A stretch of DNA of 44,351 nucleotides, taken from assembly GCA_027308685.1 (NCBI GenBank), contig DAIDEE010000029.1, positions 1 through 44,351 of the forward strand. The letters are read 5' to 3'. The stretch's first letter is position 1; each line of letters begins with the position of its first letter. Shown here in pieces: positions 25,572-44,351 of this stretch. Under the pieces are notes generated by a model. It searched no databases, was not told the origin of the DNA, and saw nothing but the letters and a program-made list of their open reading frames with translations. Source of the DNA: Acidocella sp. (GTDB taxonomy: Bacteria > Pseudomonadota > Alphaproteobacteria > Acetobacterales > Acetobacteraceae). The position numbers and the translations under genes are program-made.

Positions 25572-25572
25572 T

Positions 25573-27372: not shown

Positions 27373-27423
27373 TAGCGATCCTTTCCGTGGCCGCTGATCT
27401 GAGGCAGATAGGGGGCAAACTGC

Positions 27424-28131: not shown

Positions 28132-28163
28132 AGCATGATCGCTCTACGTGCGATCATGCTCTA
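28129..28163 (+). terminator. Long hairpin overlapping the lipoprotein stop codon
   Basis: A perfect 13-bp inverted repeat: 28129-28141 pairs with 28151-28163 around a nine-base loop. The left arm begins with the TAG stop codon of the lipoprotein gene. ATTTTGTTT follows, so it probably works as a rho-independent terminator in the plus direction, though the T run is interrupted and the arm is only moderately GC-rich. Confidence 0.7.
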
Positions 28164-28186
28164 ATTTTGTTTCGGAGGGCGATTCA

Positions 28187-28222
28187 CGTTTCAGGCTCGC
28201 GCAAGGGCGCAAACCTGAAACG
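28187..28222 (+). promoter_or_regulatory. Hairpin in the leader of the aminotransferase-hom operon
   Basis: CGTTTCAGG (28187-28195) pairs with CCTGAAACG (28214-28222); inside, GCGC (28199-28202) pairs with GCGC (28207-28210) around AAGG, leaving a CT-C/AAA internal loop. It ends 46 bases before the start codon at 28269. It does not match riboswitch consensus motifs I know (for example SAM-II). It could be a leader regulatory RNA or a protein-binding stem. Confidence 0.45.
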
Positions 28223-28268
28223 ACCGCACTCTGTGTCTTCGCCTGTTCTAGCCTTGAGAGAGTTTTCC

Positions 28269-29489: not shown

Positions 29490-30778
29490 AACACAGCTTA
29501 CAAATCGGCATTGCCGGGCTCGGCACGGTGGGCGCGGGCGTGGTCAAACTGCTGCATGATAATGCGGCGTTGATCGAGGCGCGGGCGGGGCGGAAGATTA
29601 CGGTTACTGCTGTGTCGGCGCGTGATAAAACCCGCGACCGGGGCGTCTCGCTGGAAGGGTTTGGCTGGCACAGTGACGCTGTGGGCCTGGCGAATGACCC
29701 GCATGTGGATGTGGTGGTGGAGCTGATCGGTGGCTCTGAAGGCACAGCGCGGGAACTGGCAGAGGCCACCCTGGCGGCGGGCAAGCCGCTGGTGACGGCG
29801 AACAAGGCGCTGCTGGCGGTGCATGGGGCGGCGTTGGGACTGGCGGCGGAAAAAGCCGGGGTGCCGTTGGGGTTTGAATCTGCCGTGGCAGGTGGAATTC
29901 CGGTCATCAAGGCGCTGCGTGAGGGGTTGGCTGGGAATAAAATTTCCCGGGTGGCTGGTATTTTGAACGGCACCTGCAATTACATTCTTACCGTGATGCG
30001 CGAAGAGAAACGTGATTTTCATGATGTGCTGGCCGATGCGCAGAGACTGGGTTACGCGGAAGCCGACCCGTCTTTCGATATCGATGGGATTGATGCCGCG
30101 CATAAGCTCGCAATTTTGGCGGCGCTGGCTTTTGGCCGCTTGGTAGATTTTGACGCCGTGCATATTGAAGGTATCCGCCGTGTGAGCGCGTTGGACATCA
30201 GCTTTGCCGAAGAACTGGGTTACCGGATTAAATTGCTGGGTATCGCGCGGGAAACGCCAGCGGGGGTTTCGGTGCGGGTGCATCCGGCCATGGTGCCGAA
30301 GGAAGCGCTGTTGGCGGCGGTTGATGGCGTGTTCAATGCGGTGCTGGCGGAAGGTGATTTTGTTGGAACGGTATTTTTGCAAGGGCGCGGTGCCGGTGGA
30401 GGACCAACCGCTTCAGCGGTTGTGGCGGATTTGATTGATATAGCGCGTGGCAACAACGTTCCGGTTTGGGGAGCCAAGGCAGCAGCGTTGTCGGCGGCGG
30501 CGGTGGTGCCGATGGCGGCGCATGTTGGGCCGTATTTTATGCGCCTGATGGTGGTGGATCAGCCTGGTGTGCTGGCCGATGTGACGGCAATTTTGCGCGA
30601 CCACGGAATTTCATTGGAATCGATGCTGCAGCACGGCCGCAAGCCAGGCGAGGCGGTGCCGATTGTGCTGGTGACGCATGAGACCAACGAAGCGGCCATC
30701 ATGCAGGCCATTGCCAGGATTTCCCAATTGGACTCGGTTTTGGAAACCCCGGCGCTGATTCGCATTGAAGCCAATTAA
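29486..30778 (+). CDS. hom: Homoserine dehydrogenase
   Basis: NAD(P)-dependent reduction of aspartate semialdehyde to homoserine, the branch to threonine and methionine. 430 residues: Rossmann GLGTVGAGV (11-19), TANKALLA, GTCNYILT, the substrate/catalytic segment EADPSFDIDGIDAAHKLAILA, and a C-terminal ACT domain (about 350-430, starting YFMRLMVVDQPGVLADVT) for feedback control, probably by threonine. It overlaps the aminotransferase upstream and precedes glpX by 17 bases. Confidence 0.96.
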   Translation: MKHSLQIGIAGLGTVGAGVVKLLHDNAALIEARAGRKITVTAVSARDKTRDRGVSLEGFGWHSDAVGLANDPHVDVVVELIGGSEGTARELAEATLAAGKPLVTANKALLAVHGAALGLAAEKAGVPLGFESAVAGGIPVIKALREGLAGNKISRVAGILNGTCNYILTVMREEKRDFHDVLADAQRLGYAEADPSFDIDGIDAAHKLAILAALAFGRLVDFDAVHIEGIRRVSALDISFAEELGYRIKLLGIARETPAGVSVRVHPAMVPKEALLAAVDGVFNAVLAEGDFVGTVFLQGRGAGGGPTASAVVADLIDIARGNNVPVWGAKAAALSAAAVVPMAAHVGPYFMRLMVVDQPGVLADVTAILRDHGISLESMLQHGRKPGEAVPIVLVTHETNEAAIMQAIARISQLDSVLETPALIRIEAN

Positions 30779-30795
30779 CAATAAGGAAACTCAAA

Positions 30796-31782
30796 ATGGG
30801 TAACAGGAAGCCGGAAGATATTTGGGATCGTAACCTGGCACTGGAACTCGTGCGCGTGACCGAGGCGGCAGCTTTGGCGGCGTCGCGCTGGATTGGCCGG
30901 GGCAAAAAGAACGAAGCCGATGGTGCGGCGGTGGAGGCCATGCGCAAGGCGTTCGATACGGTGGCCATTGATGGCACGGTGGTGATCGGCGAAGGTGAGA
31001 TGGACGAAGCGCCGATGCTGTATATCGGCGAGAAAGTCGGCATGGGTGGTCCTGCGATGGATATCGCGGTGGACCCCTTGGAGGGCACGTCCATTACAGC
31101 CAAGGGTGCGCCTAATTCTATTGCGACTGTCGCGCTGGCTGAGCATGGCAATTTTTTACATGCGCCAGATATTTATATGGATAAAATTGCGGTGGGCGGC
31201 GGGCTGCCCGAAGGTGTCGTTTCGCTCGATGCTTCGGTGGGGCAGAATTTGCGTAGCCTGGCGCAGGCTAAAAAATGCGATATTTCGGATTTGATGGTGT
31301 GCATGCTGGAGCGCGAGCGCCATGAGGAGATCATCGCCAAATGCCGGGAAGCCGGGGCGCGGATTGTGTTGATCGGCGATGGCGATGTGGCCGGGGTGAT
31401 TGCGGTGTCGCAGCCCGACACCGGCATTGATATTTATCTTGGCTCGGGTGGCGCCCCAGAGGGCGTGCTGTCGGCGGCTGCTTTGCGTTGTATCGGCGGG
31501 CAGATGCAGGGCCGGTTGCTGTTTGAGGATGAGGGACAGATTGAGCGGGCGCGCGGCATGGGCATTACCGACCCGCACCGGATTTATAATACCGCTGATA
31601 TGGCCAAGGGCGATGTGATGTTTGCCGCCACTGGCGTAACCACCGGCCCGATGCTGCGCGGCGTGCATCGTACTGGCAGCAAGGCGGTGACATATTCGAT
31701 CGTGATGCGCAGTAAATCTGGCACGGTACGCTATGTGGAAGCGCATCATAATTTCGATACTAAAACATGGTCGCCGGACTGA
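30796..31782 (+). CDS. glpX: Class II fructose-1,6-bisphosphatase
   Basis: Gluconeogenic phosphatase of the Li-sensitive GlpX family. 328 residues. Metal-site motifs: IGEGEMDEAPMLYIGEKVG, AVDPLEGTS; then GAPNSIATVAL, IGDGDVAGV, GSGGAPEGVLSAAAL and FAATGVTTGPML, all in family order. AAGGAA lies eight to nine bases before the ATG. It sits in hom-glpX-recJ, an arrangement found repeatedly in alphaproteobacteria with no obvious metabolic logic. Its last 16 bases overlap recJ. Confidence 0.95.
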   Translation: MGNRKPEDIWDRNLALELVRVTEAAALAASRWIGRGKKNEADGAAVEAMRKAFDTVAIDGTVVIGEGEMDEAPMLYIGEKVGMGGPAMDIAVDPLEGTSITAKGAPNSIATVALAEHGNFLHAPDIYMDKIAVGGGLPEGVVSLDASVGQNLRSLAQAKKCDISDLMVCMLERERHEEIIAKCREAGARIVLIGDGDVAGVIAVSQPDTGIDIYLGSGGAPEGVLSAAALRCIGGQMQGRLLFEDEGQIERARGMGITDPHRIYNTADMAKGDVMFAATGVTTGPMLRGVHRTGSKAVTYSIVMRSKSGTVRYVEAHHNFDTKTWSPD

Positions 31783-33548
31783 GTTTTTTGACGGCCTTAG
31801 GCGTTGAAAAAAGCCTGACGGGACGGCGGTGGGTTTGGCGCCCGGTGGAAGAGCGGATTGGTCAGGCGATCGCGCAGCAATTGGGCGTGCCGGAATTGGT
31901 GGGCCGGCTGCTGGCCGGTCGGGGGGTTACGCTCGCACAGGCACCGGATTTTCTCGACCCCACTTTGCGGGCGTTGCTGCCTGACCCTTCACGTTTGCAG
32001 GATATGGATAAAGCGGCGGCGCGTTTGGCGGATGCTGTGCAGGCCGGTGCCTGCGTTGGCGTGTTCGGCGATTACGATGTGGATGGTGCGTGCAGTGCTG
32101 CCCTGATGGTGAGCGTTTTGCGTGGCCTGGGTTGCCAGGTTTTGCACCATGTGCCCGACCGGATTTTGGAAGGCTACGGGCCGAATACCGCGGCGTTGCG
32201 CAGCATGGCCGAACGCGGGGCGCGATTGATTGTTTGCGTGGATTGCGGAACCACCGGCCATGATGCGTTTGCGCCACTGCATAACATCGCTGATGTGGTG
32301 GTGTTTGATCATCATAAATCGGAGGGGTTGCCGCCGCAGATTGCCGCTTTAGTGAACCCCAACCGGCTGGATTGTGAGTCTGGATTAGGCAACATTTGCG
32401 CAACGGCGGTGGCGTTTATGGGATGTATCGCGCTGCTGCGCGTTTTGCGGGGGCGCGGGTTTTTTGCGGGCCGTGCCGAGCCTGATTTGCGCGAGTTGCT
32501 GGATTTGGTGGCGTTGGCGACGATTTGCGATGTGATGCCGCTGACTGGCTTGAATCGGGCGTTTGTGGCGCAAGGCTTGCGGGTGATGGCCAAGCGTAAC
32601 CGCCCCGGCATCGCGGCGTTATTGGACGTGGCAAAGTTGAGCAACGCCCCTACCGCGATGAATTGCGGGTTTGCCCTAGGCCCCCGCATTAACGCATCTG
32701 GCCGCATTGCTGAGCCCGATATGGGCCTTCGGCTGTTGCTGGCGGATGATGTTGGAGAGGCCACTGACTTAGCCAACACCCTCGATACCGTGAACCGGCA
32801 GCGCCAGACCGTTGAAGCCGGCATTTTGCAAACCGCAATGGCGTTGGCCGAGGCGCAGATTGCCGCCGGGCACGCGGTTGTTTTAGTGGCGCAAGCTGAC
32901 TGGCACACTGGCGTGGTTGGCATTGTTGCCGGAAGGATTAAAGAAAAATTCAACCGTCCGGCGCTGGTGGCGGGCATTGCCGATGGTGTTGCCAAGGGCT
33001 CGGGCCGGTCGGTGCCGGGCGTGGATTTAGGAGCGGCCGTGATCGCGGCGCGGCAGTCGGGGCTTTTGAAAACTGGTGGGGGTCATGCGATGGCTGCCGG
33101 ATTTGGGCTGGCGGCGGAAGACGTGCTTGCGTTTCATGCGTTTCTCGATGAACGCCTGGCACAGGCCAGCACCCTGCCGAGCGCCACTGACCTGACCCTG
33201 GAGGCGGTGCTGGCGGTGGCAGGCGCCGATGCCGGACTGGCCGAGATGGTGGGTAAGCTAGGCCCGTTCGGCAACGGTAATGAGGAGCCTTTGTTCGTGC
33301 TGCCCAGAGTGCGCGTGGTGAAGTCTGACCGGATTGGAAAGGATGCCGCGACCATTCGGGTGATGGTTGAAGGTGAGGGCGGAGCCCGGCTGAAAGCGCT
33401 GCTGTTTCGCGCCAAGGAGGATGAACTGGCGAGCGCCCTATCGCGAGTCGGCGGGGCGCCCTTGCATCTGGCCGGCCATTTGCGGGCGGAAAGCTGGAAC
33501 GGCCGGGTCACCGCCGGGTTCTTCATCACCGACGCCGCCCCGGCTTGA
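31767..33548 (+). CDS. recJ: Single-stranded-DNA-specific exonuclease RecJ
   Basis: 5'-3' ssDNA exonuclease in recombination and mismatch repair. 593 residues. DHH-superfamily motifs: GDYDVDG with Asp102 and Asp104, VDCGTTG (159-164), DHHKSE (181-186), ATICDVMPL, then the DHHA1 domain with GPRINASGRI, GVVGIVAGRIKEKF and GGGHAMAAG, and the C-terminal OB fold. The N-terminus LGVEKSLTGRRWVWRP starting at about residue 11 fits relatives. The ATG at 31767 is inside glpX, so translation is coupled; later starts are possible but would cut the conserved N-terminus. Confidence 0.95.
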   Translation: MVAGLSFLTALGVEKSLTGRRWVWRPVEERIGQAIAQQLGVPELVGRLLAGRGVTLAQAPDFLDPTLRALLPDPSRLQDMDKAAARLADAVQAGACVGVFGDYDVDGACSAALMVSVLRGLGCQVLHHVPDRILEGYGPNTAALRSMAERGARLIVCVDCGTTGHDAFAPLHNIADVVVFDHHKSEGLPPQIAALVNPNRLDCESGLGNICATAVAFMGCIALLRVLRGRGFFAGRAEPDLRELLDLVALATICDVMPLTGLNRAFVAQGLRVMAKRNRPGIAALLDVAKLSNAPTAMNCGFALGPRINASGRIAEPDMGLRLLLADDVGEATDLANTLDTVNRQRQTVEAGILQTAMALAEAQIAAGHAVVLVAQADWHTGVVGIVAGRIKEKFNRPALVAGIADGVAKGSGRSVPGVDLGAAVIAARQSGLLKTGGGHAMAAGFGLAAEDVLAFHAFLDERLAQASTLPSATDLTLEAVLAVAGADAGLAEMVGKLGPFGNGNEEPLFVLPRVRVVKSDRIGKDAATIRVMVEGEGGARLKALLFRAKEDELASALSRVGGAPLHLAGHLRAESWNGRVTAGFFITDAAPA

Positions 33549-33584
33549 CCCCTGCCGGGGCTGGGGGTAGGCAGGGCGTGCCTC

Positions 33585-33660
33585 GTCCCGTTCGTCTAGA
33601 GGCCCAGGACGCTGCCCTCTCACGGCGGTAACAGGGGTTCGAATCCCCTACGGGACGCCA
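33585..33660 (+). tRNA. tRNA-Glu (anticodon CUC)
   Basis: Full cloverleaf: acceptor 33585-33591 pairs with 33650-33656, discriminator G and encoded CCA at 33658-33660. D arm begins TCGTCTAGAGGCCCAGGAC; anticodon stem CTGCC/GGCGG encloses the loop CTCTCAC with anticodon CTC at 33619-33621; T arm GGGGTTCGAATCCCC. It starts 36 bases after the recJ stop. No T-rich terminator directly follows. Confidence 0.97.
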
Positions 33661-33800
33661 TCACTTTCAACCCATTGATAGATTGAAGTATTTTGACACC
33701 ACACGCCGGCAGCGTGAGATGGTTTTGTGTCATGACGGGACAGCCTTATGCTCGTGGCATCGTTAGGGGTGGGGCAAGTACTTGATTGAAGGTTGGGGGC

Positions 33801-34925
33801 ATGGCTGAGGGTTCAGTAGCGATTATCGGCGGTGGCTTGGCTGGGCTGTGTGCCGCGCGTTTGTTGATGGCGGCAGAGGTCTCGTTTGTCATGATTGAAG
33901 CGCGCAACCGCCTCGGCGGCCGCATCATCACGGTCGACAAGGATGGGCATCCGAGCGAAGATGGGTTTGACCTCGGCCCTTCCTGGTTTTGGCCGCACAC
34001 CCAGCCGGCAATTGGCGCGTTGGTCGAGGAATTGGGGCTTTCGGCCTTTGGTCAAAGCAGCGATGGTGATGTGATTATCGAGCGCATGTCGCGCGAGACA
34101 TTCCAGCGTTATCGCGGTGCGGGGCAAGATCAGCAGTCCTTGCGCCTGGTAGGCGGCACTGGTGCCCTGGTGCGGGCGCTGGCGCACAGTCTGCCAATTC
34201 AGCATATATGGCTTGAGACGCGCCTCACGGCGATGGCTTTGTCAGGCGATGGCGTGGTGCTCACGCTCAAGCGGGCCGATGGCACGACCGAGATGATAAG
34301 AACCCAGCAGGTGATCGCCGCTTTACCGCCCCGGTTGCTGGAGGCCACGGTTACTTTTACGCCCGGCCAGGCGGCAGCAACCGCGCAGCGCTGGCGTGAT
34401 ACGCCGACCTGGATGGCGCCGCACGCTAAGTTCGTGGCCATTTACGACCGCCCGTTCTGGCGGGAGGCCGGATTATCGGGCACAGCGCAAAGCATGGTGG
34501 GGCCGATGGCTGAAATGCACGATGCCTCAACGGCAGCCGGTGCGGCCGCATTGTTTGGATTTATCGGTGTGGGAGCCGAACACCGGGCGGCGATCGGCGA
34601 AACTTCATTGACCCAAGCCTGCCTCGACCAACTCGCGCGGGTTTTTGGCGCAGAGGCACAGACCCCGCGGGCAACCCTCTTCAAGGACTGGGCGGCTGAC
34701 CCGTTGACGGCAACGCTGGCGGACCGCGCCATGGGCGGGCATCCATCGCCAGGCGATGCATTGTGGGTCACTGGCCCGTGGCGTGAGAAGCTGGCGTTGG
34801 CGGGCAGTGAAACCAGCCCGTCGGAGCCTGGTTATCTCGCCGGCGCTGTGGGTGCCGCGCGGAGAGCCGTGGCAGAAACCCGGGCGAAGTTAGAAGCCAG
34901 CGGCCTTGCGTTCAAGTTTTCCTGA
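33801..34925 (+). CDS. Flavin-containing amine oxidase (FAD/NAD(P)-binding)
   Basis: 374 residues. The N-terminal FAD motif is VAIIGGGLAGLCAARLL, with the ribose-binding Glu in MIEARNRLGGRI, then DLGPSWFWP. The C-terminal FAD-contact motif LALAGSETSPSEPGYLAGAV is of monoamine oxidase type, though shorter than most (450 residues). The ATG at 33801 is preceded by AAGG eight bases upstream; the longer frame begins with a TTG. There is no signal peptide. It stands alone after tRNA-Glu. Substrate unknown; a link to the polyamine operon 20 kb away is only a possibility. Confidence 0.82.
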   Translation: MAEGSVAIIGGGLAGLCAARLLMAAEVSFVMIEARNRLGGRIITVDKDGHPSEDGFDLGPSWFWPHTQPAIGALVEELGLSAFGQSSDGDVIIERMSRETFQRYRGAGQDQQSLRLVGGTGALVRALAHSLPIQHIWLETRLTAMALSGDGVVLTLKRADGTTEMIRTQQVIAALPPRLLEATVTFTPGQAAATAQRWRDTPTWMAPHAKFVAIYDRPFWREAGLSGTAQSMVGPMAEMHDASTAAGAAALFGFIGVGAEHRAAIGETSLTQACLDQLARVFGAEAQTPRATLFKDWAADPLTATLADRAMGGHPSPGDALWVTGPWREKLALAGSETSPSEPGYLAGAVGAARRAVAETRAKLEASGLAFKFS

Positions 34926-34976
34926 CATCAGGTCAAGGCTGTTCATTGGCATGCTGCTGGGGCCGGCCACCTGGGT

Positions 34977-34985
34977 TTATCCACA
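34977..34985 (+). promoter_or_regulatory. Single perfect DnaA box
   Basis: TTATCCACA matches the DnaA box consensus exactly, and AT-rich sequence follows at 35005-35090. No second box was found nearby, so this is a lone site: a possible DnaA-regulated promoter element or chance. Confidence 0.4.
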
Positions 34986-35012
34986 ATCGTGAAAATCCGG
35001 GGCACTAAAAAA

Positions 35013-35039
35013 TTGACATATCTTTGGAAAAGATATTAC
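35013..35039 (+). promoter_or_regulatory. Candidate promoter with an embedded dyad upstream of the RHH gene
   Basis: TTGACA (35013-35018) is a perfect -35; TATTAC (35034-35039) could be the -10 at a short 15-base spacing. Between them lies a 7-bp inverted repeat, ATATCTT/AAGATAT (35018-35024 and 35030-35036, loop of five), placed where a repressor would block RNA polymerase. The gene it would serve, at 35110, encodes a ribbon-helix-helix protein, a family that often binds such short dyads and regulates itself. Confidence 0.45.
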
Positions 35040-35109
35040 GAAAATCATGGAAATACTTACTTAATCACGCAAGAGTTTAATCTCGTAAAAGTGAGCAGGG
35101 AAAAACGCC

Positions 35110-35412
35110 ATGTGCAGAATTTTTCGCCGCCAGGATGCCGCCACATACGCCGCCGAGACACGGGCGGTTCGCCTTAACGGTCACGCGACATCTATCCGGC
35201 TGGAGGCCGCTTTTTGGGAGATCCTTGAAGAAATTGCGAGGCATGAGGGTATGTCTCTCGGCCGCTTTGTTTCAACCCTGCACGACGAGATCCTGTTCGA
35301 TCAGGGCAAAGTTCAAAATTTTGCCTCACTGCTTCGGGTTACCTGCCTGCATTACCGGCAAAACCGGGAGCTGTATCTGGCGGACGTCAGCGCCCGCCGC
35401 TTGGTCGCGTAA
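35110..35412 (+). CDS. Ribbon-helix-helix domain protein
   Basis: 100 residues. The segment from about 25 to 65 (SIRLEAAFWEILEEIARHEGMSLGRFVSTLHDEIL) fits the RHH_4 domain: a short beta strand with SIRLE followed by two helices. The C-terminal part, NFASLLRVTCLHYRQN, is typical of this alphaproteobacterial small-protein group. The start lies after GCAGGGAAAAACGCC, where AGGG gives a usable ribosome site. It is probably a DNA-binding regulator, but several RHH_4 proteins have no known target. It precedes the cytochrome/dehydrogenase cluster by 162 bases with no clear terminator between. Confidence 0.75.
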   Translation: MCRIFRRQDAATYAAETRAVRLNGHATSIRLEAAFWEILEEIARHEGMSLGRFVSTLHDEILFDQGKVQNFASLLRVTCLHYRQNRELYLADVSARRLVA

Positions 35413-35574
35413 GGCGGGAGCACCACAGAGACGAGCCGTAACGGCCGAAATATTCATGAATTTTGCGTTAGATTGAAATCAACAGCTTTGTCTTAACGGA
35501 ATACTACCCAGGGCCGTCTCACCGTTACTACAATCATCCCAATCGTTAAGAACGAAATATTGGGAGAACAGTCC

Positions 35575-35976
35575 ATGTCTTTACGGCTGGTCAGTAAGTG
35601 GCAAATCCCCCTTGTGGTAGCGGTTGTGCTCGTGATGGCGCCGGTCGTCTCACGCGCTGACAGTCCGGCTGATTTGTTCGTCGCACAATGCGCTGTTTGC
35701 CATACGATGAGCGCCAAAGACCCGATGCGCCAAGGCCCAAATTTGGGAAATGTTTACGGACGTAAAGTGGGCAGTGTTGCCGGTTTTGCTTACTCGCCAG
35801 ACTACACAAAGGCTAATTTTATCTGGGATGCAAAGCATCTGGATGCGTATCTGGCGAATCCGGCTAGCGTCTTGCCTGATAGCTATATGGCCTATCAGCA
35901 GCCTGATCCCGCTATTCGTGCTGAAATCATTGATTATCTGAAGCAGCAGGCCCCTCTTTATGTGGACGGAAAATAA
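35575..35976 (+). CDS. Secreted mono-haem class I cytochrome c
   Basis: 133 residues. Signal peptide 1-28 (hydrophobic 11-22, cleavage near SRA). One haem motif, C39-A-V-C-H43; the distal ligand is probably Met105 in DSYMAYQ. The GPNLGNVYGRKVGS and YSPDYTKANFIWD segments are those of cytochrome c2/c552-like carriers. GGGAGAA is seven to eight bases before the ATG at 35575; an ATG five codons earlier is less well placed. It leads a string with a VOC protein, a Tat-exported small subunit and a GMC flavoprotein, so it is the likely electron acceptor of that dehydrogenase. It is a recognisable paralogue of the cytochrome at 43777. Confidence 0.9.
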   Translation: MSLRLVSKWQIPLVVAVVLVMAPVVSRADSPADLFVAQCAVCHTMSAKDPMRQGPNLGNVYGRKVGSVAGFAYSPDYTKANFIWDAKHLDAYLANPASVLPDSYMAYQQPDPAIRAEIIDYLKQQAPLYVDGK

Positions 35977-35977
35977 C

Positions 35978-36370
35978 ATGGCGAAGATGATCCACAGTAT
36001 GATCCGGGTTGCCGATGAAGCGCGGTCAGTTGCATTCTATGAATCTGCCTTTGGGCTTTCAGTTGCAGAAAAAATTGCCTTTGATAGTTTTTCGCTCATT
36101 TATCTTTCGAACGCTGAGCAGGCATTTGAGCTTGAGCTCACGGTTAATCACGGCCATCCACCGTACGACTTAGGCAACGGGTACGGTCATCTTGCCGTTT
36201 CGGTCGAGGATGTAGCCGCAGTGCATGAGCGGATTTCGGCGATGGGTGCCGTCTGCACCCCGGTCAAAGACTTGTCACATGAAGGTAGGTTGATTGGCAC
36301 ATTTTTTTTCGTCACCGACCCTGATGGTTATAAAATCGAAGTTTTAAAAAGAGCTGGACGCTTCAAATAA
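35978..36370 (+). CDS. VOC-family protein, glyoxalase I-like
   Basis: 130 residues with two beta-alpha-beta-beta-beta modules. Candidate metal ligands are in the glyoxalase I positions: His6 (MIHSMIRV), Glu53 (ELELT), His71 (YGHLAVSV) and Glu121 (DGYKIEVL). The motif FFVTDPDGYKIEVLKR is typical of lactoylglutathione lyase (GloA). It lies one base after the cytochrome stop and has no signal peptide, so it would act in the cytoplasm on glutathione hemithioacetals, unlike its exported neighbours. Its place inside a dehydrogenase cluster may mean that the pathway makes a reactive 2-oxoaldehyde (inference). Confidence 0.85.
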   Translation: MAKMIHSMIRVADEARSVAFYESAFGLSVAEKIAFDSFSLIYLSNAEQAFELELTVNHGHPPYDLGNGYGHLAVSVEDVAAVHERISAMGAVCTPVKDLSHEGRLIGTFFFVTDPDGYKIEVLKRAGRFK

Positions 36371-36392
36371 CATCAATGAGAGGAAACGCCGT

Positions 36393-36947
36393 ATGACCAT
36401 GAGAAAAGTTGATGCCCGCGTTAAAGTGACGCGCCGGCAGTTTTTACAGACCAGCGCCACGGTGGCCCCCGCCGCAACACTTCTTGCAGGCGGCGCCACA
36501 CTTGGTTCAGAGGCAGCATGGGCGCAGGCCAGCACACTCTCGCCACATGCGATGGCAACGCTGACCCTGATGGCGCGTGATACATATCCGCATGACCAGC
36601 TTGGTGATTCCTATTACCGGAGTGCTGTTGCCCATTGGGACGATGATGCCGCCGCCGACGTTGCGAAGCGTCAGATAATTGCCGATGGTGTCGTCGGGTT
36701 AGATGCCGAGGCTAATGCGCGCTTCGGTGCGAATTATATTGATGTTGCCTCGGAGGCCGATCGGGTCACAATCCTGCAGGCTGTTGAACCTGGCGCCTTT
36801 TTCAAGGCGGTGCGAGCTGATTTGGTTGTTTCGCTGTACAACCAAAAGAAGCTCTGGCCAAAGTTCGGCTATGAGGGAGCGTCCGCCCAGTATGGGGGCT
36901 ATCTGCATCGCGGCTTCAACGATATCGATTGGCTGCCCTCCACGTAA
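36393..36947 (+). CDS. Tat-exported small subunit, gluconate 2-dehydrogenase subunit 3-like
   Basis: 184 residues. A twin-arginine signal is clear: VTRRQFLQTS at 12-21, a hydrophobic Ala-rich stretch, and a probable cleavage after AAWA near 44. The mature part (SPHAMATLTLMARDTYPHDQLGDSYY..., KLWPKFGYEGASAQYGGYLHRGF) follows the subunit 3/gamma pattern of membrane-bound GMC dehydrogenases (gluconate, sorbitol, FAD-glucose dehydrogenase). In that family the small subunit carries the Tat signal for the signal-less flavoprotein, a hitchhiker mechanism. The GMC gene follows at 37065, fitting this exactly. Confidence 0.82.
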   Translation: MTMRKVDARVKVTRRQFLQTSATVAPAATLLAGGATLGSEAAWAQASTLSPHAMATLTLMARDTYPHDQLGDSYYRSAVAHWDDDAAADVAKRQIIADGVVGLDAEANARFGANYIDVASEADRVTILQAVEPGAFFKAVRADLVVSLYNQKKLWPKFGYEGASAQYGGYLHRGFNDIDWLPST

Positions 36948-37064
36948 AGTATTTTCCGGCCAAGCGCTGAGGTTTTTGCCGGGTTTTACCGAACAGTCTC
37001 AGCTGATCAGACTGGTTAAAGCGAGGCAGTCTATACGGGTATTTATCTAACGGAGACTATCGAA

Positions 37065-38639
37065 ATGACATTAGCAAAATTTGATCAAAGTGATGATTCC
37101 GTTTTCGTTATCATCGGTTCCGGCGCGGGTGGCGGTACGCTTGGCAATGAACTTGCCCAGAAGGGGGTAAAAGTTGTGATGCTTGAAGCCGGCGCACGCT
37201 TTAATATCCCAGATTTCGTCAACGATGAGTGGCCGAGTTTTTCGCAATTAGCTTGGACCGATGCGCGTACGACTTCTGGCTCCTGGCGGGTCGCCAAGGA
37301 TTTCCCTAACCTGCCATCATGGATCGTTAAAGCTGTTGGCGGTACTTCGATCCATTGGGCTGGAGCATCGTTACGCTTTGGTGAGTGGGAGTTTAAAGCC
37401 AAAACTACTTATGGTGATATCGACGGAGCCAATTTGTTGGACTGGCCGATTACGCTCGACGAAATGGTGCCTTACTATGCCAACGCTGAAAACCGTATGG
37501 GGGTAAACGGCACAAACGGTATTCCACATTTGCCCGGCAACAATAATTTTAAGGTCATGCAGGCTGGCGCGCAAAAGCTTGGCTATAAAACAGTGTTTAC
37601 CGGCAACATGGCAATCAACTCGCAGCCGCGCGACGGGCGTGGGTCGTGCGAGCAGATTGGTTTTTGCTTTCAGGGTTGTAAATCCGGCGCCAAATGGTCA
37701 ACCCTCTACACAGAAATCCCGAAAGGTGAGGCCACGGGAAATCTCGAAGTCAGGCCGCTATCGCAGGTGATTCATATCGAACACAACGCCGCAGGTAAGG
37801 TGACTGGCGTGGTCTACGCCGATGCCAAAGGGGTGATGCAGCGTCAGAAGGCGCGCGGTGTTGCAGTTGCCGGGAACTCACTGGAGTCTCCTCGTCTGTT
37901 GCTCAACAGTGCGTCGGGCAAATATCCTGACGGGTTGGCGAACAGTTCGGGTCAGGTGGGGCGCAATTATATGCGTCATACCACCGGCAGCGTGTATGCC
38001 AGTTTTGAAAAGCCCGTGCATATGTATCGTGGCACCACGATGGCCGGGATTATCCGTGATGAGTCGGTGAATAATCCAAAACGGGGCTTCGTGGGCGGCT
38101 ATGAGATGGAAACAATTTCCCTTGGCTTGCCTTTTGCCGCGGCATTTTTTGACCCCGGCGCGTGGGGTCGTAGCTTTACCTCGAAGCTGGATGATTACGC
38201 AAATACTGCTGGAATGTGGATCATCGGTGAGGACATGCCGCAGGAAACAAATCGGGTAACGCTCGATGGTAAGGTCAAGGATAAATTTGGAATGCCGGTT
38301 GCAAGCGTGCATTTTGACGATCATCCCAACGATATTGCCATGCGTAACCATGGGTTCAAACAAGGTGGCGCCGTGTATCGGGCTGTGGGAGCGACCCGGG
38401 TTGCAGAAGTTCCCCCTTATCCGTCTACTCATAATTTGGGGACCAACCGCATGAGTGCAAATGCGCGTGATGGTGTTGTTAACAAATATGGCCAGACTCA
38501 CGACATCAAAAATCTGTTCATTTCGGATGGTTCGCAATTTACCACGGGGGCCGGGGTTAACCCAACGCTCACGATTGTTGCACTGGCTGTGCGGCAAGGG
38601 GATAATATTGCTGGCATGATGTCGCGGGGAGAAATTTAA
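37065..38639 (+). CDS. GMC-family periplasmic FAD dehydrogenase, large subunit
   Basis: 524 residues, no signal peptide, as expected for a subunit exported with a Tat partner. FAD motif IIGSGAGGGTLGNELA at 16-31 with the Glu in MLEAGARF; GGTSIHWAG (92-100); the C-terminal active-site motif HNLGTNRM with His456 and Asn499 in GAGVNPTLTI. A cluster of cysteines, Cys195-x5-Cys201-x3-Cys205 in SCEQIGFCFQGC, resembles the [3Fe-4S] cysteines of FAD-glucose-dehydrogenase-type enzymes. GGAG lies nine bases before the ATG. It probably oxidises a sugar, polyol or sugar acid in the periplasm and passes electrons to cytochrome c; the classic three-haem subunit is missing and mono-haem cytochromes are present instead. 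Confidence 0.87.
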   Translation: MTLAKFDQSDDSVFVIIGSGAGGGTLGNELAQKGVKVVMLEAGARFNIPDFVNDEWPSFSQLAWTDARTTSGSWRVAKDFPNLPSWIVKAVGGTSIHWAGASLRFGEWEFKAKTTYGDIDGANLLDWPITLDEMVPYYANAENRMGVNGTNGIPHLPGNNNFKVMQAGAQKLGYKTVFTGNMAINSQPRDGRGSCEQIGFCFQGCKSGAKWSTLYTEIPKGEATGNLEVRPLSQVIHIEHNAAGKVTGVVYADAKGVMQRQKARGVAVAGNSLESPRLLLNSASGKYPDGLANSSGQVGRNYMRHTTGSVYASFEKPVHMYRGTTMAGIIRDESVNNPKRGFVGGYEMETISLGLPFAAAFFDPGAWGRSFTSKLDDYANTAGMWIIGEDMPQETNRVTLDGKVKDKFGMPVASVHFDDHPNDIAMRNHGFKQGGAVYRAVGATRVAEVPPYPSTHNLGTNRMSANARDGVVNKYGQTHDIKNLFISDGSQFTTGAGVNPTLTIVALAVRQGDNIAGMMSRGEI

Positions 38640-38962
38640 GCGGGATTGCCGGCTCCGATGTCGCCGGCATAGGTCGGGGACATAGGTTTTTGCTCGCGAT
38701 ACAAAGCGGATGGGCCGAGAGACCGCGGTAAAAAGCGGTTGTCTCGGCCCTGTTGCTTCTGCCATATCAGGGCGACCAAAATTTTCAGGCCATTACCGCT
38801 AAAATTGACATAAATCTGTCACACTTCAAAGCCGTTGGCTGCTGTAGCAGCGGGTTGGGTATTGGTGGGAGCTGTTGTGTCATATCGCGCGGGTGAAATT
38901 GGGGGGAGGGCCAGACCCCTGCCGACGATTCATGGGCCTGCGCGCAATGAAGGAATGAGCCA
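38640..38962. other. Intergenic region between the GMC gene and the two-component system
   Basis: 323 bases without a gene. It begins with a 7-bp hairpin (TGCCGGC 38647-38653 with GCCGGCA 38663-38669), followed by a longer one at 38712-38750. TTGACA at 38805-38810 is a possible -35, with no good -10 at the right distance. TGTCACA at 38817-38823 and TTGTGTCA at 38875-38882 resemble motifs found upstream of the TonB-dependent receptor. AAGGA at 38950-38954 serves the next gene. Confidence 0.6.
38712..38750 (+). terminator. Large GC-rich hairpin downstream of the GMC gene
   Basis: GGGCCGAGA (38712-38720) pairs with TCTCGGCCC (38742-38750), and ACCGC (38722-38726) with GCGGT (38735-38739), with a small bulge between the two stems and a loop of GGTAAAAA. 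No T run follows (TGTTGCTTCT), so it is a weak intrinsic terminator or an RNA-stability/rho-related structure. Confidence 0.5.
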
Positions 38963-39637
38963 TTGCGGATTCTGCTGATCGAGGATGATGTTAAAATGGC
39001 AGATTATCTCTGCCGTGCCCTCGGCGTGTATCAATACGAGGTTACGGTGGCGGCCGATGGCCATGTGGGATTACTCATGGCGGCCGATCAGGTTTTTGAC
39101 GTTATGATCATCGATCGGATGCTGCCTGGGATAGATGGCCTGACGCTGCTTCGTACATTGCGTATGGCCAAGATAAACTACCCGGCCTTATTCCTGACCG
39201 CTCTCGACAGTATAAATGACCGCGTGATGGGGCTGCGAGCAGGCGGTGATGATTACCTGGTGAAGCCTTTTGTGCTGGCCGAGCTTGAGGCGCGCCTTGG
39301 GGCGCTGGTACGCCGGCAGCCGGGTAACCGGCAAAAGATGCATTTCAAGGTCGGCGATCTCGAACTTGACCGGCTAACGCGCGAGGTAAAGCGCGGCGAC
39401 CGTATTGTCGATCTGACGCCAAAGGAATTTCAGCTTCTTGCATTTCTCATGCTGTACGAGGGGCAAGCCGTTACCCGCAAGTTGTTGCTTGAGAAAGTAT
39501 GGAACTATCATTTTGTTCCTGGCACCAAGATTGTGGAGTCGCATATCAGCCGATTACGCGATAAGATCGATAGCGGCAATTGTGATGCCTTGATCCATAC
39601 TTGCCAAAGGGGCTATCGCATCGAAGCTCATGCCTAA
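38963..39637 (+). CDS. OmpR-family response regulator
   Basis: 224 residues. Receiver domain: acidic pair Asp8-Asp9, phospho-acceptor Asp51 in MIIDRMLPG, Thr79 region LFLTALD, and Lys101 in YLVKPF. The winged-helix output domain (about 128-222) has LTPKEFQLLAFLM and VESHISRLRDKID, then QRGYRIEA. The start is TTG at 38963; AAGGA eight bases upstream and the standard N-terminus RILLIEDD support it over any ATG. It overlaps the kinase by eight bases. Likely targets are the adjacent TonB receptor genes and perhaps the GMC cluster (inference). Confidence 0.93.
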   Translation: MRILLIEDDVKMADYLCRALGVYQYEVTVAADGHVGLLMAADQVFDVMIIDRMLPGIDGLTLLRTLRMAKINYPALFLTALDSINDRVMGLRAGGDDYLVKPFVLAELEARLGALVRRQPGNRQKMHFKVGDLELDRLTREVKRGDRIVDLTPKEFQLLAFLMLYEGQAVTRKLLLEKVWNYHFVPGTKIVESHISRLRDKIDSGNCDALIHTCQRGYRIEAHA

Positions 39638-41000
39638 GTTGATGATCCTGCGTGCGTTTCAAAGCAAGGCATTTCAGCTTGCTTTACAAACGACCATTAT
39701 TTCCGGTCTGGGCGCGGTCGTTATCTCGGCTGTAATCTATTATGCGGCGGAGACGACCATCAAGGGGCAGCTTGATAGCGCGGTCAAAAGTGAGCAGGCC
39801 GAGATAATGGCTGATTCCAGTGGCGCGGAGCCAGATATCGAGGCGAGTATACGTGATGAACTGAAAGATTCCTCGGGATTATTTTATGCACTTCTGCAAC
39901 CGTCTGGCAAGACCCTGGTTGGCAATGTTGCTGTTCCAGCCAGCCTGATAAAGAACTTAAATGTCTACAAGACACTGATCGCTCGGGACGGTTTAAACTT
40001 GCCGTCGCATGTGTTGGCAATTCGTGGCATGGCGATAAAACTGGGAAATGGAGATGTTTTATATATCGCCGAAAAAGCCAACGAATTAGTCGCTCTTAAC
40101 GATTTCTACTCATATTCATTTCTGGTCCTGGTGGGCGGTATTCTGGCCATCGGTATGGCGGGGGGGTTTTTCACTGCACGCAGTGCGTTGCGCCGGGTCG
40201 AGGCGATCACCTCGGCCAGCCATGAAATCATGGCTGGTAATCTCGCGCGGCGGATTGATGAAGATGGTAGTGGTGATGAATTCGACCGTCTCATTATCAG
40301 CTTGAACCTGATGCTGGATCGTATCCAAGTACTCATGCAAAATGTTCAGCAGGTCAGTAATGATATTTCACATGATCTACGTTCGCCATTGGTGCGATTA
40401 CGCGATAACCTGGAGCTTTCGCGGACGATGACGCATGATCCCTCAATCGACACTTGCTTTGACGAGGCGATCGAACAGGTTGACGCCGTACTGGGTATTT
40501 TCTCTGCAATGTTGAGACTAGCCGAAGTTGAAACCCATTCAATGCGGACACATTTCGTGCCGATTGATATGACATCGTTACTTGAGGATATGGTTGAGAC
40601 ATTCAAGGTCGTCGCTGCAGCAGACCATAAAATGGTTCACGCCGAGATTGACGTGCAACTTTGCATGACGGGAGACCAGGAGTTGTTGGAGCAAATGTTC
40701 GTCAATGTCATTGAAAATGCTATTCTGTATTCGCCCTCTGGGGAGAATATATTGGTTAAGGCTTGGCGTAACACAGCTGGCGGCGTGGCCGTAGAAATTG
40801 CCGATCGGGGACCTGGCATACCCGCTAGCGAGCACAAACGTGTTCTGCAGCGCTTCGTAAGGCTTGATGCGTCGCGCCATAATCCGGGTACTGGTCTTGG
40901 GTTGGCGTTAGTCAAGGCTATCGTAGATATGCATGGTGGAACAATCTCATTCGCCGAAAATCATCCCGGTCTGAAGGTGTTGATTCAGATTCCAAACTAA
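39630..41000 (+). CDS. Membrane sensor histidine kinase
   Basis: 456 residues. Two membrane segments (about 18-39 and 162-182) bracket a periplasmic domain of about 120 residues without a recognised ligand motif. HAMP follows (183-236). The dimerisation helix has NDISHDLRSPL with phospho-acceptor His248; the ATPase domain has an N box NVIENAILYS, G1 DRGPGIP and G2 GTGLGLALVK. EnvZ/QseC-like architecture. Paired with the response regulator upstream; the operon may continue no further, because 358 bases separate it from the receptor gene. The sensed signal is unknown; being next to a TonB receptor, the transported compound or a product of its oxidation is a candidate. Confidence 0.93.
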   Translation: MPKLMILRAFQSKAFQLALQTTIISGLGAVVISAVIYYAAETTIKGQLDSAVKSEQAEIMADSSGAEPDIEASIRDELKDSSGLFYALLQPSGKTLVGNVAVPASLIKNLNVYKTLIARDGLNLPSHVLAIRGMAIKLGNGDVLYIAEKANELVALNDFYSYSFLVLVGGILAIGMAGGFFTARSALRRVEAITSASHEIMAGNLARRIDEDGSGDEFDRLIISLNLMLDRIQVLMQNVQQVSNDISHDLRSPLVRLRDNLELSRTMTHDPSIDTCFDEAIEQVDAVLGIFSAMLRLAEVETHSMRTHFVPIDMTSLLEDMVETFKVVAAADHKMVHAEIDVQLCMTGDQELLEQMFVNVIENAILYSPSGENILVKAWRNTAGGVAVEIADRGPGIPASEHKRVLQRFVRLDASRHNPGTGLGLALVKAIVDMHGGTISFAENHPGLKVLIQIPN

Positions 41001-41358
41001 ACCGCAGTATCACCCAGTACCGCGTGCAGCGGTTGAATGACACCGCTGTGACAAAATTCCAAGATCAGTTTATCATTTGGTAATGTTGGGCCAGGTGTTG
41101 TGACATCAGCATCTTCACATAAAAAGCCCGGTTTCCCGCAGAAAACCACACCGTTTCCGCGGCGTGGCGGTGTCGCGCTAAAATGGTGCCATTGATTATC
41201 GGCGCTTGGGACCTGAAGTGCTGGCCGTTTAACCGATTTGCCACAGGTCTGACGCAAAACTGAAATTGTCGTCGTGGCGCGCCTTCGTTACCAGACGCAC
41301 CCAAGCTGAATACTTCGGAATTTCGGCGACAATATTTGTGTGAACAGGGGCTATTAGA
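41001..41358. other. Intergenic region upstream of the TonB-dependent receptor
   Basis: 358 bases with no credible gene. TGTGACA occurs twice in direct orientation (41047-41053 and 41099-41105), and its inverse occurs upstream of the response regulator gene. ACACCG and CGGTGT at about 41147-41172 form a weak stem with a long loop. AGGGG at 41346-41350 lies eight bases before the receptor ATG. No clear sigma-70 promoter is seen; an activator-dependent promoter is likely. Confidence 0.55.
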
Positions 41359-43767
41359 ATGACGGGACCTTCGATGATGCGTGGGATGACGAAGCGCGAG
41401 ATGACGATACGTGCAATGTTGACATGTGCGTGCTCCTTACGAGCTCTGAGAGTGGCATTACCGCCGCTATTAATGTCTGGTTTGGCGTTGACATATATTT
41501 CGCCAGCGACAGCGCAAACCGTTGATGCCGGTACCGTTAGTGCGACGGCGACCACGGTAAATGCGACCGATACTGGTTTTGCAAGCAAGGTGATGGATAA
41601 AAAAACAATTCAGCATCAGAGCCAGGCAGTAACCACGATTAGCAAAGATAAAACTGATTTATTCACGCCGCAAACCTCGGGGTTGCAAACCTTGACGGCA
41701 ACGCCGGAAGTGACAATCAGCGGTTATAATTCTACCAGTGGTACCGCCCGTTCGACGGTTTCAATGCGTGGTGTGAAGGTTGGTTGGAATTCGGTGCCAG
41801 GTGATTTGGAGACTAATGGCATTACCGTGCTGCTTGATGGCATTCCGTTAAATAGTTTGATTCAAGGTACGGGCTGGCATTCGACCGAAATTCCGATGGG
41901 CACACTGCTCTCGGGAACTAATGTAATTTTCGGCCCTGGCAATCCAACTGATCGTTGGTATGATAGTCTGGGTGGCACGATCAACTTTATTCCAGTTCAG
42001 CCTTCTGAAAAACCGGAAGCTAAAATAACGGCTTCGTATGGTAGTAATAATCAGCAAAATATTTCACTCTATGCCTCCAGTGGCGTGTATGATGGTTGGT
42101 CATCCGTTGTTGGTTATGCTCATGGGTTTGGTAATACATTCCGCACTGGCGGCTACACCGACCCCGCTCAAGGTAGCCAGTTGTTTGCCAAGGTACGTAA
42201 GAATTTTAACGGAGGGCACATCAGCGTTGGTGGCTATTGGCAGCATAGCATTGAGCAGCGCCCAAACGATATTCCCGTAAATCCGATTGCCGGTGTGACA
42301 ACCGCCGGATTGAACGTGGTAGGTGCCCCGTTATATAGCCAACAGACGTCTGGATTCTATTCCGATTTAAATGCAAATGTCTGGTTTAAAAGAAACCAAA
42401 TTCAAAATTACATTGGTTATATAAAGTTTTTTGATCAGCTTGATAATAATACGAGTGTGAGTAACCTAACTTGGTATCGGCATGGCCAAGTGATTCATTA
42501 TCGCGTCAACCCAGGTTTCCAGGCGGCTAGTGCGAATGATAGTGAATATTACAATCCGTATTCCGATACCATCGGCGATAAATTGAGTTTCGAAACCAAG
42601 CTGCCTTATAACACCATTAGCTATGGCGGTTACGTTATTTATTCGCATACGGTAGATTCGTATCGCGGTTATCAAACGCTGAGTTACCAGGGTTCGACAC
42701 CGAGCACGCAGCAGATGCCATTTCAGGCTACGCAGAGTATTTATGACAATCTGTTCGCCGCAGCGTTCCTGCAAGATGATATATCGCCAATCCCGAATTT
42801 ACATATTGTGCCGGGCATTCAATTGGTTAATTATGGTACCAGCTTTTACAATAATAATGCCAGCTATGCATTGCAATATCCACCGCAACAAGCGGGTAAC
42901 ACCAACCCGAGCGTGACCAAAGATTTTCAGCGCCCAGAGCCTTCCATCGGGATTACCTATGATATTCTTCCGTGGTTGACGCCGTATGCTAACTTTGCGA
43001 TTACATACCAAAATCCGACGGGTGGTAATTTCAATAATCAACAGACTAATTTGCCGGCATTGAAGCCGGTGAAGAGTACCGATTATGAAATTGGAATTCG
43101 CATGCTGCAGGATAATTTCATGGGCTTTGATGAAATGTCCGGTTCGGTTGGGTATTTCCATGATACATTGTCCGACCAGACCATCCCGATCAGTCTCGCC
43201 AGCGCACCGAATGTGACAACTTTTGGTTATGCATCAGCCATTTTGCAAGGCATTAACGCCGAATTCGACGGTAAATTGAATTTCAACTGGGATTTCTTTG
43301 CCAATCTTGGCTATTTTGATGGTCATTATGTTTCATATATGTCGCCGGCGCAGGTTCAGTATTCCAATGTACCGGTTTCCAACACGCCAACGCTACGCAC
43401 CAATATCGGCATCACATACAAGCGCTTCTTTGGCTCGGATTTGTTCAAGGCCAGTGTTATCGACCAATATTTTGGTCATAGCTATATGTTTAATAATTCC
43501 ATTGGCGCTCCAACCACGCAGAAGATTCAGGCTTATAACTTGGTGAATTTCAATATTACCTGGACCACGCCGTTCTTCAACCGCTTTGTGCCAAAACTAG
43601 GCGAAGTGACATTTGGGCTCAGCGGGTCAAACATTCTCGACCGGCATTATAACTCCACTGAATATGTGTCCTCAGGAGGTTATTTTGGCGGCTTAGGGGC
43701 TGGTTCAGTGATTGCAAACCCAGGCCAGGGCCGCGCACTATATGGTTCTGTCAGTCTGACTTTTTGA
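41359..43767 (+). CDS. TonB-dependent outer-membrane receptor
   Basis: 802 residues. A long N-terminus with a signal peptide whose hydrophobic core is at about 30-47 and a cleavage near ATAQ (53). QTVDAGTVSATAT after it may hold the TonB box. A plug domain follows (about 85-215; SMRGVK, VLLDGIPLN, GTNVIFGPGNPTDRWYDSLGGTINF), then a beta-barrel rich in aromatic alternation and Asn/Tyr/Ser, ending LYGSVSLTF with the terminal Phe required for insertion. The plug is similar to siderophore- or metal-type receptors but no ligand can be named. Codons are AT-richer than in the housekeeping genes. It is followed closely by a cytochrome c and a TonB-like gene. Confidence 0.92.
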   Translation: MTGPSMMRGMTKREMTIRAMLTCACSLRALRVALPPLLMSGLALTYISPATAQTVDAGTVSATATTVNATDTGFASKVMDKKTIQHQSQAVTTISKDKTDLFTPQTSGLQTLTATPEVTISGYNSTSGTARSTVSMRGVKVGWNSVPGDLETNGITVLLDGIPLNSLIQGTGWHSTEIPMGTLLSGTNVIFGPGNPTDRWYDSLGGTINFIPVQPSEKPEAKITASYGSNNQQNISLYASSGVYDGWSSVVGYAHGFGNTFRTGGYTDPAQGSQLFAKVRKNFNGGHISVGGYWQHSIEQRPNDIPVNPIAGVTTAGLNVVGAPLYSQQTSGFYSDLNANVWFKRNQIQNYIGYIKFFDQLDNNTSVSNLTWYRHGQVIHYRVNPGFQAASANDSEYYNPYSDTIGDKLSFETKLPYNTISYGGYVIYSHTVDSYRGYQTLSYQGSTPSTQQMPFQATQSIYDNLFAAAFLQDDISPIPNLHIVPGIQLVNYGTSFYNNNASYALQYPPQQAGNTNPSVTKDFQRPEPSIGITYDILPWLTPYANFAITYQNPTGGNFNNQQTNLPALKPVKSTDYEIGIRMLQDNFMGFDEMSGSVGYFHDTLSDQTIPISLASAPNVTTFGYASAILQGINAEFDGKLNFNWDFFANLGYFDGHYVSYMSPAQVQYSNVPVSNTPTLRTNIGITYKRFFGSDLFKASVIDQYFGHSYMFNNSIGAPTTQKIQAYNLVNFNITWTTPFFNRFVPKLGEVTFGLSGSNILDRHYNSTEYVSSGGYFGGLGAGSVIANPGQGRALYGSVSLTF

Positions 43768-43776
43768 GGTAAAGTA

Positions 43777-44178
43777 ATGAACGGTTTCTATTCAATCGCC
43801 GTCGCTCTGACGATGTCCATCGCTACGATGGGCATCGCCACGGCGCAGACCTTGGTCAGCGGCGGCAATGTGGCCGCTGGTAAAATTGTCTATCTGCATC
43901 AATGCTCCGGCTGCCACAGCAACCAGCCGCATGTGGACCGTTTTGGCCCAACATTGGCAGGGGTTTATGGCCGGATGTCAGGTACTGCACCGCTGCATCA
44001 TTATTCGGCGGCCATGAAGGCGGCTCATATTTTGTGGGGCGCGGACACGCTGGATGATTTTTTAGAAAATCCACGGCAGGATATTCATGGCACTACAATG
44101 CCCTACAGCGGCTTGGCGAGTGCCACGGCGCGGGCGGATATCATTGCCTACCTCAAATCAATTTCTCCTCAGCCTTAA
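43777..44178 (+). CDS. Secreted mono-haem cytochrome c (receptor-linked)
   Basis: 133 residues. Signal peptide 1-23 (cleavage after ATA-Q). One haem site, C-S-G-C-H at about 43-47, and a likely distal Met in GTTMPYSG. It shares with the cytochrome at 35575: CxxCH, then R-x-G-P-x-L-x-x-V-Y-G-R, YS, a Trp before a Leu-Asp pair, N-P, and a final A-x-I-I-x-Y-L-K. The SD GAGGT overlaps the receptor stop (43766-43770), so translation is tied to the receptor's. A cytochrome in this position is not a usual part of TonB systems. Confidence 0.9.
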   Translation: MNGFYSIAVALTMSIATMGIATAQTLVSGGNVAAGKIVYLHQCSGCHSNQPHVDRFGPTLAGVYGRMSGTAPLHHYSAAMKAAHILWGADTLDDFLENPRQDIHGTTMPYSGLASATARADIIAYLKSISPQP

Positions 44179-44181
44179 ATC

Positions 44182-44351
44182 ATGATGTCTCCTTCAAGTA
44201 GTAATCCAGCCATCTCCTTCGGTGGGGATGGACCCGATAAATTCTGGCGGGCCTTTCTCATCGCAGCAGTGATTGAGGTGGTCTGTGTGCTGGCGATTGT
44301 CAAAATTTCGGCAACGGTTGGCGTCAAGCATCACGCCACCCAACCCACTAT
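44182..44351 (+). CDS. TonB-like energy transducer, N-terminal fragment
   Basis: The frame opens at ATG 44182 (a second ATG follows directly) and runs off the window edge after 56 codons. It begins with a short polar cytoplasmic stretch and then FWRAFLIAAVIEVVCVLAIV, one membrane anchor, followed by a basic/His segment and Pro. This is the TonB N-terminal layout, and context (receptor, cytochrome) supports it. No Pro-rich linker or TonB C-domain can be seen. No good ribosome site precedes it. It could instead be another single-anchor protein. Confidence 0.55.
   Translation, partial: MMSPSSSNPAISFGGDGPDKFWRAFLIAAVIEVVCVLAIVKISATVGVKHHATQPT

Follow-up and report, generated by a model that had tools for sequence, protein, structure and literature searches.

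Does the end of an Acidocella contig encode one metabolic module or two neighbouring systems? The window analysed here, meaning the whole stretch of 44,351 nucleotides, is the entire contig DAIDEE010000029.1 (G000:C21 in our numbering) of Acidocella sp. assembly GCA_027308685.1, so that position 44351 is the contig end. Between 35110 and 44351 lie genes for a GMC dehydrogenase, a two-component system and a TonB-dependent receptor. A first-pass annotation had read them as a single uptake and oxidation module, in which the receptor imports a compound, the GMC enzyme oxidises it in the periplasm and the two-component system controls both. Comparison with related genomes makes it likely that there are instead two operons, a left one encoding an acetol (hydroxyacetone) dehydrogenase of the Methylocella type and a right one encoding a two-component and TonB receptor system, and that their being neighbours is peculiar to this lineage. 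A guessed module is thus replaced by two testable systems.

The gene list of the annotation held throughout: open reading frames (ORFs), Pfam domains and base composition showed that all genes are present, on the plus strand and in relatively AT-rich DNA, the GC content being 0.505 in 35001-44351 compared with 0.589 in 1-35000 and 0.603 in 25001-35000. The grouping of the genes is not due to chance, since they recur in order in other genomes. The features are as follows.

35110-35412, plus strand: RHH_4 ribbon-helix-helix (RHH) protein, probable regulator of the left operon (Pfam RHH_4, E 8.6e-26)
35575-35976, plus strand: monohaem cytochrome c 1, probable electron acceptor (Pfam Cytochrom_C, E 1.4e-4)
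35978-36370, plus strand: VOC protein, glyoxalase-I-like (Pfam Glyoxalase, E 1.2e-16; 35978 is the best placement of the start)
36393-36947, plus strand: TatS, small subunit with a Tat signal (RR motif)
37065-38639, plus strand: GMC dehydrogenase, probably of the acetol dehydrogenase type (Pfam GMC_oxred_N and GMC_oxred_C)
38712-38750, plus strand: stable RNA hairpin between the operons, candidate terminator (-36.3 kcal/mol, z -6.06)
38806-38823, plus strand: candidate response-regulator box 5' of the regulator gene (block similar by eye in G027, G011, G022 and G036)
38963-39637, plus strand: OmpR-type response regulator (Pfam Response_reg and Trans_reg_C)
39630-41000, plus strand: sensor histidine kinase (HAMP and HATPase_c above cut-offs, HisKA below)
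41237-41387, plus strand: conserved receptor promoter and gene start (80-83% DNA identity to G022 and G011, compared with about 71-72% for the two-component genes)
41239-41256, plus strand: second candidate regulator box, inside the conserved receptor promoter
41359-43767, plus strand: TonB-dependent receptor, mosaic gene (plug and barrel domains above Pfam cut-offs)
43777-44178, plus strand: monohaem cytochrome c 2 (Pfam Cytochrom_C, E 7.5e-7)
44182-44351, plus strand: start of a TonB gene, truncated by the contig end with the ORF still open (homology to a G011 ORF)

The two halves lie apart in related genomes

Named genomes were scanned with five GMC proteins, and the best 80 of at least 564 confirmed stretches were kept; since these 80 loci are the closest relatives, the sample is biased towards conservation. 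Neighbouring genes were sought with tblastn up to 4.5 kb from the GMC gene, and because some loci end at contig ends the counts are lower bounds. The receptor family of the window was found at 0 of the 80 loci. A cruder ORF search, the result of which is not part of the tblastn set, gave a single receptor of 24% identity, located 2.8 kb before the GMC gene of Sphingobium (L129). Homologues of the response regulator and of the kinase were present at two loci each (three loci in total, 26-42% identical), and a homologue of the second cytochrome at 2/80. The reverse comparison gave the same picture: of 31 receptor loci in other genomes, 30 lack any left-half gene, the exception being L067 of genome G027.

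Within the genus, the GMC protein was detected at E <= 1e-100 in 5 of 38 genomes, and G027 carries a piece of 93 residues (96% identical) on a contig of 3341 bases. Among these five genomes and G027, the receptor operon adjoins the GMC gene only in the window and in G027, and in the genomes seen the two halves adjoin nowhere else. Genome G011 contains both halves at separate places, each surrounded by different genes: VOC, TatS and GMC genes are located on contig C43, while regulator, kinase, receptor, cytochrome and TonB genes are located on contig C116, where other sequence fills the 7.4 kb before the regulator and the 3 kb after TonB. G028 has the left half without a receptor nearby, and G009, G022, G020 and G021 have receptor operons without a left-half gene nearby.

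Several observations speak for the single module all the same. Both halves are AT-rich, lie on the same strand and are separated by only 323 bases, and G027, the nearest relative seen, shares the adjacency. The gap between the GMC and regulator genes contains the hairpin 38712-38750, which has no U run and was not found at the same place in G027 (z -0.45), so that it is only a candidate terminator. Against the single module stand the GMC loci, the receptor loci and the separate halves of G011, and this conserved-neighbourhood comparison, in which the halves are found apart in relatives, led us to reject it. A shared control is likewise not indicated. A search with an 18-base pattern built from the two candidate regulator boxes of the window, which match it by construction, did not detect a box in the left half with up to 3 mismatches; it gave two extra matches with 3 mismatches (948 and 12850), both outside 35110-44351; 0.84 matches are expected by chance. 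In addition, acetol and other small molecules should be able to use porins and to dispense with a TonB receptor. Import, oxidation and common control by one module are thus very improbable, and two operons remain the preferred reading. As evidence the regulator box is weak by itself, and the conserved promoter block 41237-41387 is stronger. In the two-operon reading, the two-component system probably controls itself and the TonB receptor.

The left half is a widespread operon

The left half (35110-38639) is a widespread operon with the order RHH, cytochrome c, VOC, TatS and GMC. The pair of TatS and GMC genes was found at 80 of the 80 named loci and the VOC gene at 74, in one case as a distant copy 3' of the GMC gene. 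An RHH gene lies near the GMC gene at 57 loci, on either side and on either strand, and a homologue of cytochrome c 1 was present at 49. In G028 the genes for RHH, VOC, TatS and GMC are followed by one for a D-lactate dehydrogenase, and G006 and G023 carry the TatS and GMC pair without an adjacent VOC or cytochrome gene. Clustering of neighbouring ORFs beyond the operon and a block shared by Bradyrhizobium mainly yielded propane-monooxygenase-type genes (5-6 groups), D-lactate dehydrogenase (3 taxa) and a few small clusters. A literature search on the combined genes of the set turned up no paper. The conserved set gives a concrete probable function to many genes that are annotated only as 'GMC family oxidoreductase'.

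In a tree of GMC proteins (72 rows, Bradyrhizobium thinned) the window protein groups with a protein of Acidisoma (support 85/26); the tree does not fix its origin. A locus titled Frankia sp. RB7 (L092) has its GMC gene inside Bradyrhizobium in this tree and probably stems from a mislabelled or mixed assembly. GMC homologues at E <= 1e-100 were also found in 69 plasmid records, including Paracoccus (17) and, unexpectedly, Arthrobacter (5).

The RHH protein probably regulates the left operon. An inverted repeat of 8 bp before the RHH gene of the window was considered as its operator and dropped, since no common repeat was seen 5' of the RHH genes at the other loci.

Cofactors and probable electron path of the GMC dehydrogenase

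The nearest solved relatives of the GMC protein are fructose dehydrogenase and the flavin adenine dinucleotide (FAD) glucose dehydrogenase (E about 1e-47 to 1e-45). Residues C195, C201 and C205 have aligned cysteine counterparts in the large subunit of fructose dehydrogenase, and we take them to hold an iron-sulphur (Fe-S) cluster. Of 87 proteins, 85 retain all three cysteines, those of G006 and G023 being the exceptions, and H456 and N499 are kept in all 87. Cytochrome c 1 retains the CxxCH motif and Met105 in 55/55 homologues. This conservation of cofactor residues argues for electron transfer from FAD through an Fe-S cluster to cytochrome c, and against nicotinamide adenine dinucleotide (NAD) as acceptor.

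No Tat signal was seen in the GMC protein, which would be co-exported with TatS. The RR pair of TatS is present in 83 of the 84 small subunits that reach this region. At E <= 0.05 the Pfam family Gluconate_2-dh3 matches 22 of 36 TatS homologues and FAD-SLDH matches four; the window protein itself matches Gluconate_2-dh3 with E 0.011, which is under the curated cut-off. The earlier proposal, a periplasmic GMC enzyme that has a partner exported by Tat and passes electrons to a cytochrome c, is supported by the conserved gene set, the Fe-S-type cysteines and the haem ligands.

The left operon resembles the fructose and FAD glucose dehydrogenase complexes in its homologous large subunit with aligned cysteines, its small partner, predicted to be exported, and its cytochrome gene. 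The cytochrome subunit of those complexes is multihaem, whereas cytochrome c 1 has 133 residues and a single CxxCH motif. A further difference lies in TatS, which has no match in the PDB by sequence and, as an AlphaFold2 model (mean predicted local distance difference test score 79.9), none by fold at E <= 0.001.

The GMC homologues of G006 and G023 (L061:8447-10006 and L062:8926-10497, about 55%) lack all three Fe-S-type cysteines. Their genes adjoin a gene of the FmdA_AmdA family (assigned by Pfam in L061), and no VOC or cytochrome gene is adjacent. They may represent a variant that passes on its electrons by a different route.

Acetol is the probable substrate of the left operon

The assignment to acetol is based on Methylocella. 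The GMC protein of the window is 74.7% identical to that of Methylocella tundrae, in which genes for a propane monooxygenase and a sigma-54 regulator are followed by genes for RHH, cytochrome c, VOC, a 'gluconate 2-dehydrogenase subunit 3 family' protein and GMC, the same order as in the window. In the window, the operon is flanked by neither a propane monooxygenase nor a sigma-54 regulator. In the related species M. silvestris, a published study describes Msil_1641 as a propane-induced GMC oxidoreductase, the deletion of which leads to accumulation of acetol and to loss of growth on 2-propanol and acetone (PMC7364539). The same study lists Msil_1643 as a putative lactoylglutathione lyase and Msil_1649-1651 as the propane monooxygenase (PMC7364539). 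Plasmids of Azospirillum B510 and Bradyrhizobium CB82 also carry the cytochrome, VOC, TatS and GMC genes next to propane-monooxygenase-type genes.

A comparable arrangement has been reported for Methylacidiphilum, where, according to two articles, a GMC enzyme, glyoxalase I and lactate dehydrogenase form a cluster for C3 compounds (PMC8630023, PMC12235487). Awala et al. propose there that the verrucomicrobial GMC enzyme is exported by Tat, and a periplasmic GMC enzyme is therefore already in print for that phylum (PMC8630023). By these descriptions, the Methylacidiphilum cluster shares with the window the large and small GMC subunits, glyoxalase I and the proposed Tat export, and differs in having a quinone drawn as acceptor and a particulate monooxygenase in the cluster.

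The VOC protein has no visible signal peptide. Its residues H12, E59, H77 and E127 are kept in 79 of 79 proteins as four metal ligands of the glyoxalase type, and presumably correspond to the ligands of E. coli GloA. A glyoxalase II is encoded elsewhere in the genome with a score above the curated cut-off, and two FAD-oxidase_C dehydrogenases might serve for D-lactate. In the proposed pathway the GMC enzyme would oxidise acetol to methylglyoxal in the periplasm, and electrons would pass from FAD through the Fe-S cluster to cytochrome c. Methylglyoxal would then enter the cytoplasm, to be converted to D-lactate by the glyoxalase-I-like VOC protein and glyoxalase II. The best reading of the left operon is thus probably a periplasmic acetol dehydrogenase with this electron route, combined with a cytoplasmic glyoxalase. 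Acetol oxidation would then feed cytochrome c instead of producing NADH, which would change the energy yield.

A number of observations weigh against this reading. The metabolic model of Bordel et al. (2020) assumes NADH as the product (PMC7364539). The window protein was equated with Msil_1641 by gene order and locus numbers, with the sister species M. tundrae as a stand-in. Propane-monooxygenase-type genes were found at 9 of the 80 named loci and not seen at the other 71 in the DNA examined per locus; since so many relatives are without it, the monooxygenase may not be a defining feature of the operon. It is not among the window genes read, and a protein query for the alpha subunit, in which the positive controls were recovered in 2/2 records, found none in the genome of the window. 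The VOC protein reaches 126.8 bits with the NCBIfam model of GloA, for which the cut-off is 165, and no full-length homologue of the D-lactate dehydrogenase of G028 was found in the genome. The missing fold match of TatS belongs here as well.

The operon could also act as described and have another main substrate, such as 2-propanol, 1,2-propanediol, another hydroxyketone or a sugar. The solved relatives of the GMC protein do act on fructose and glucose, the loci without monooxygenase genes would fit, and Awala et al. suggest that the verrucomicrobial enzyme may also oxidise 2-propanol (PMC8630023). The accumulation of acetol in the Msil_1641 deletion strain speaks against this, the authors of the SolV study judge a dual function of the GMC enzyme unlikely (PMC12235487), and the glyoxalase-I-like gene at most of the loci fits a 2-oxoaldehyde as product. 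We consider a different main substrate unlikely; acetol is a better candidate than a sugar, a polyol or a sugar acid.

The right operon joins a sensor pair, a receptor, a cytochrome and TonB

The right operon (38963-44351 and beyond) would comprise the two-component system, the TonB receptor, a periplasmic cytochrome c and a dedicated TonB. That these genes belong together, as had been suggested, was borne out by receptor loci of other genomes, in which they recur. Regulator and kinase genes lie directly before the receptor gene in seven genomes (the window's, G027, G011, G022, G036, G020 and G021), and an order-wide survey of 299 genomes found the receptor at E <= 1e-60 in 22. The truncated TonB gene was identified by 47 amino acids that align at 55% identity to an ORF of 237 residues in G011 (L069:12783-13496), which carries TonB_C. 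This domain was present in 4 of 4 scanned full-length homologues, three of which occupy the corresponding position in other receptor operons, the fourth being next to an additional receptor.

A cytochrome c gene adjoins 9 of 31 related receptors, counted with the window in place of L067; eight follow the receptor and one precedes it, all on the same strand. In G020, G021 and G247 this cytochrome is of another kind, 26-31% identical to that of the window. Besides the left-hand cytochrome of the window, the receptor stretches contain no further cytochrome matching this profile. Since the profile was built from these same cytochromes, their position counts as evidence and their score does not. 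The two cytochromes of the window had been called related. They do share a broad family, but at 36% identity over 97 amino acids no closer kinship is apparent.

The best NCBIfam matches of the regulator and the kinase are models of CopRS/CzcRS-like heavy-metal systems, and both are under the cut-offs (TIGR01387, 193.3 of 279.2 bits; TIGR01386, 165.1 of 292.55 bits); unlike such systems, the pair precedes a TonB receptor. This raises the possibility that the right operon is linked to metals, with the pair sensing a metal, the receptor importing a metal chelate and the cytochrome helping to reduce and release the metal. Paralogous two-component pairs (40-51% identical) have a gene for a resistance-nodulation-division (RND) type pump nearby in 10 of 12 loci (L227, L229 and L231-L238, Pfam checked in L227), one match being weak (27%), and the other two loci end close by. 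The receptor matches PDB profiles of haem and metal-pseudopaline receptors weakly, PhuR best (E 1.9e-9) and then CntO. On the other hand, every NCBIfam match stays below its curated cut-off, including that of the receptor with the haem-receptor model TIGR01785 (53.9 of 316.85 bits), and RND pumps also export other compounds. A metal-linked function is therefore conceivable but rather doubtful. Given the weak NCBIfam and PDB profile matches, no cargo is assigned to the receptor. Another TonB receptor lies beside the paralogous pair in 2 of the 12 loci (G013 and G015; L231 and L233).

The receptor gene is a mosaic

Compared with G011, the window shows 79% identity for the regulator and 73% for the kinase, but only 41% for the receptor, which is 79% identical to the receptor of G009. 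The corresponding values between G011 and G036 are 64%, 56% and 62%. At the DNA level, 38946-40996 and 43862-44279 are 71-73% identical to G011 and G022, the promoter block 41237-41387 reaches 80-83%, and 41611-44168 is 72.5% identical to G009; the receptor gene also contains a few short matches (<120 bases) to G011 and G022. The change can be located in the protein. Residues 16-63 follow G011 (32/48 identical, compared with 22/48 for G009), and residues 64-110 follow G009 (31/47, compared with 9/47 for G011). Downstream of the receptor, cytochrome c 2 and the TonB start are again closer to G011 and G022. The simplest reading is that the receptor body was exchanged behind a kept promoter and gene start; unequal rates of change in place of an exchange are the weaker alternative.

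The mosaic gene and the cytochrome c that adjoins related receptors are new observations, and they point to TonB receptors that move together with a cytochrome, and whose bodies are swapped behind a kept promoter. Tentatively, the right operon might belong to a class of TonB-dependent uptake systems in which the periplasmic c-type cytochrome works together with the receptor, for instance by reducing an imported complex, with the barrel swapped as a cassette and the sensor pair, promoter with receptor start, cytochrome and TonB kept. We rate this proposal as unlikely.

Another gene cluster in the window

A cluster at 6931-14550 on the minus strand encodes agmatine deiminase and N-carbamoylputrescine amidase, both above curated cut-offs. 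It also holds genes for an aminotransferase and for a protein resembling glutamine synthetase, as well as two transporter-like ORFs that are similar to each other. This cluster probably serves the breakdown of agmatine and putrescine.

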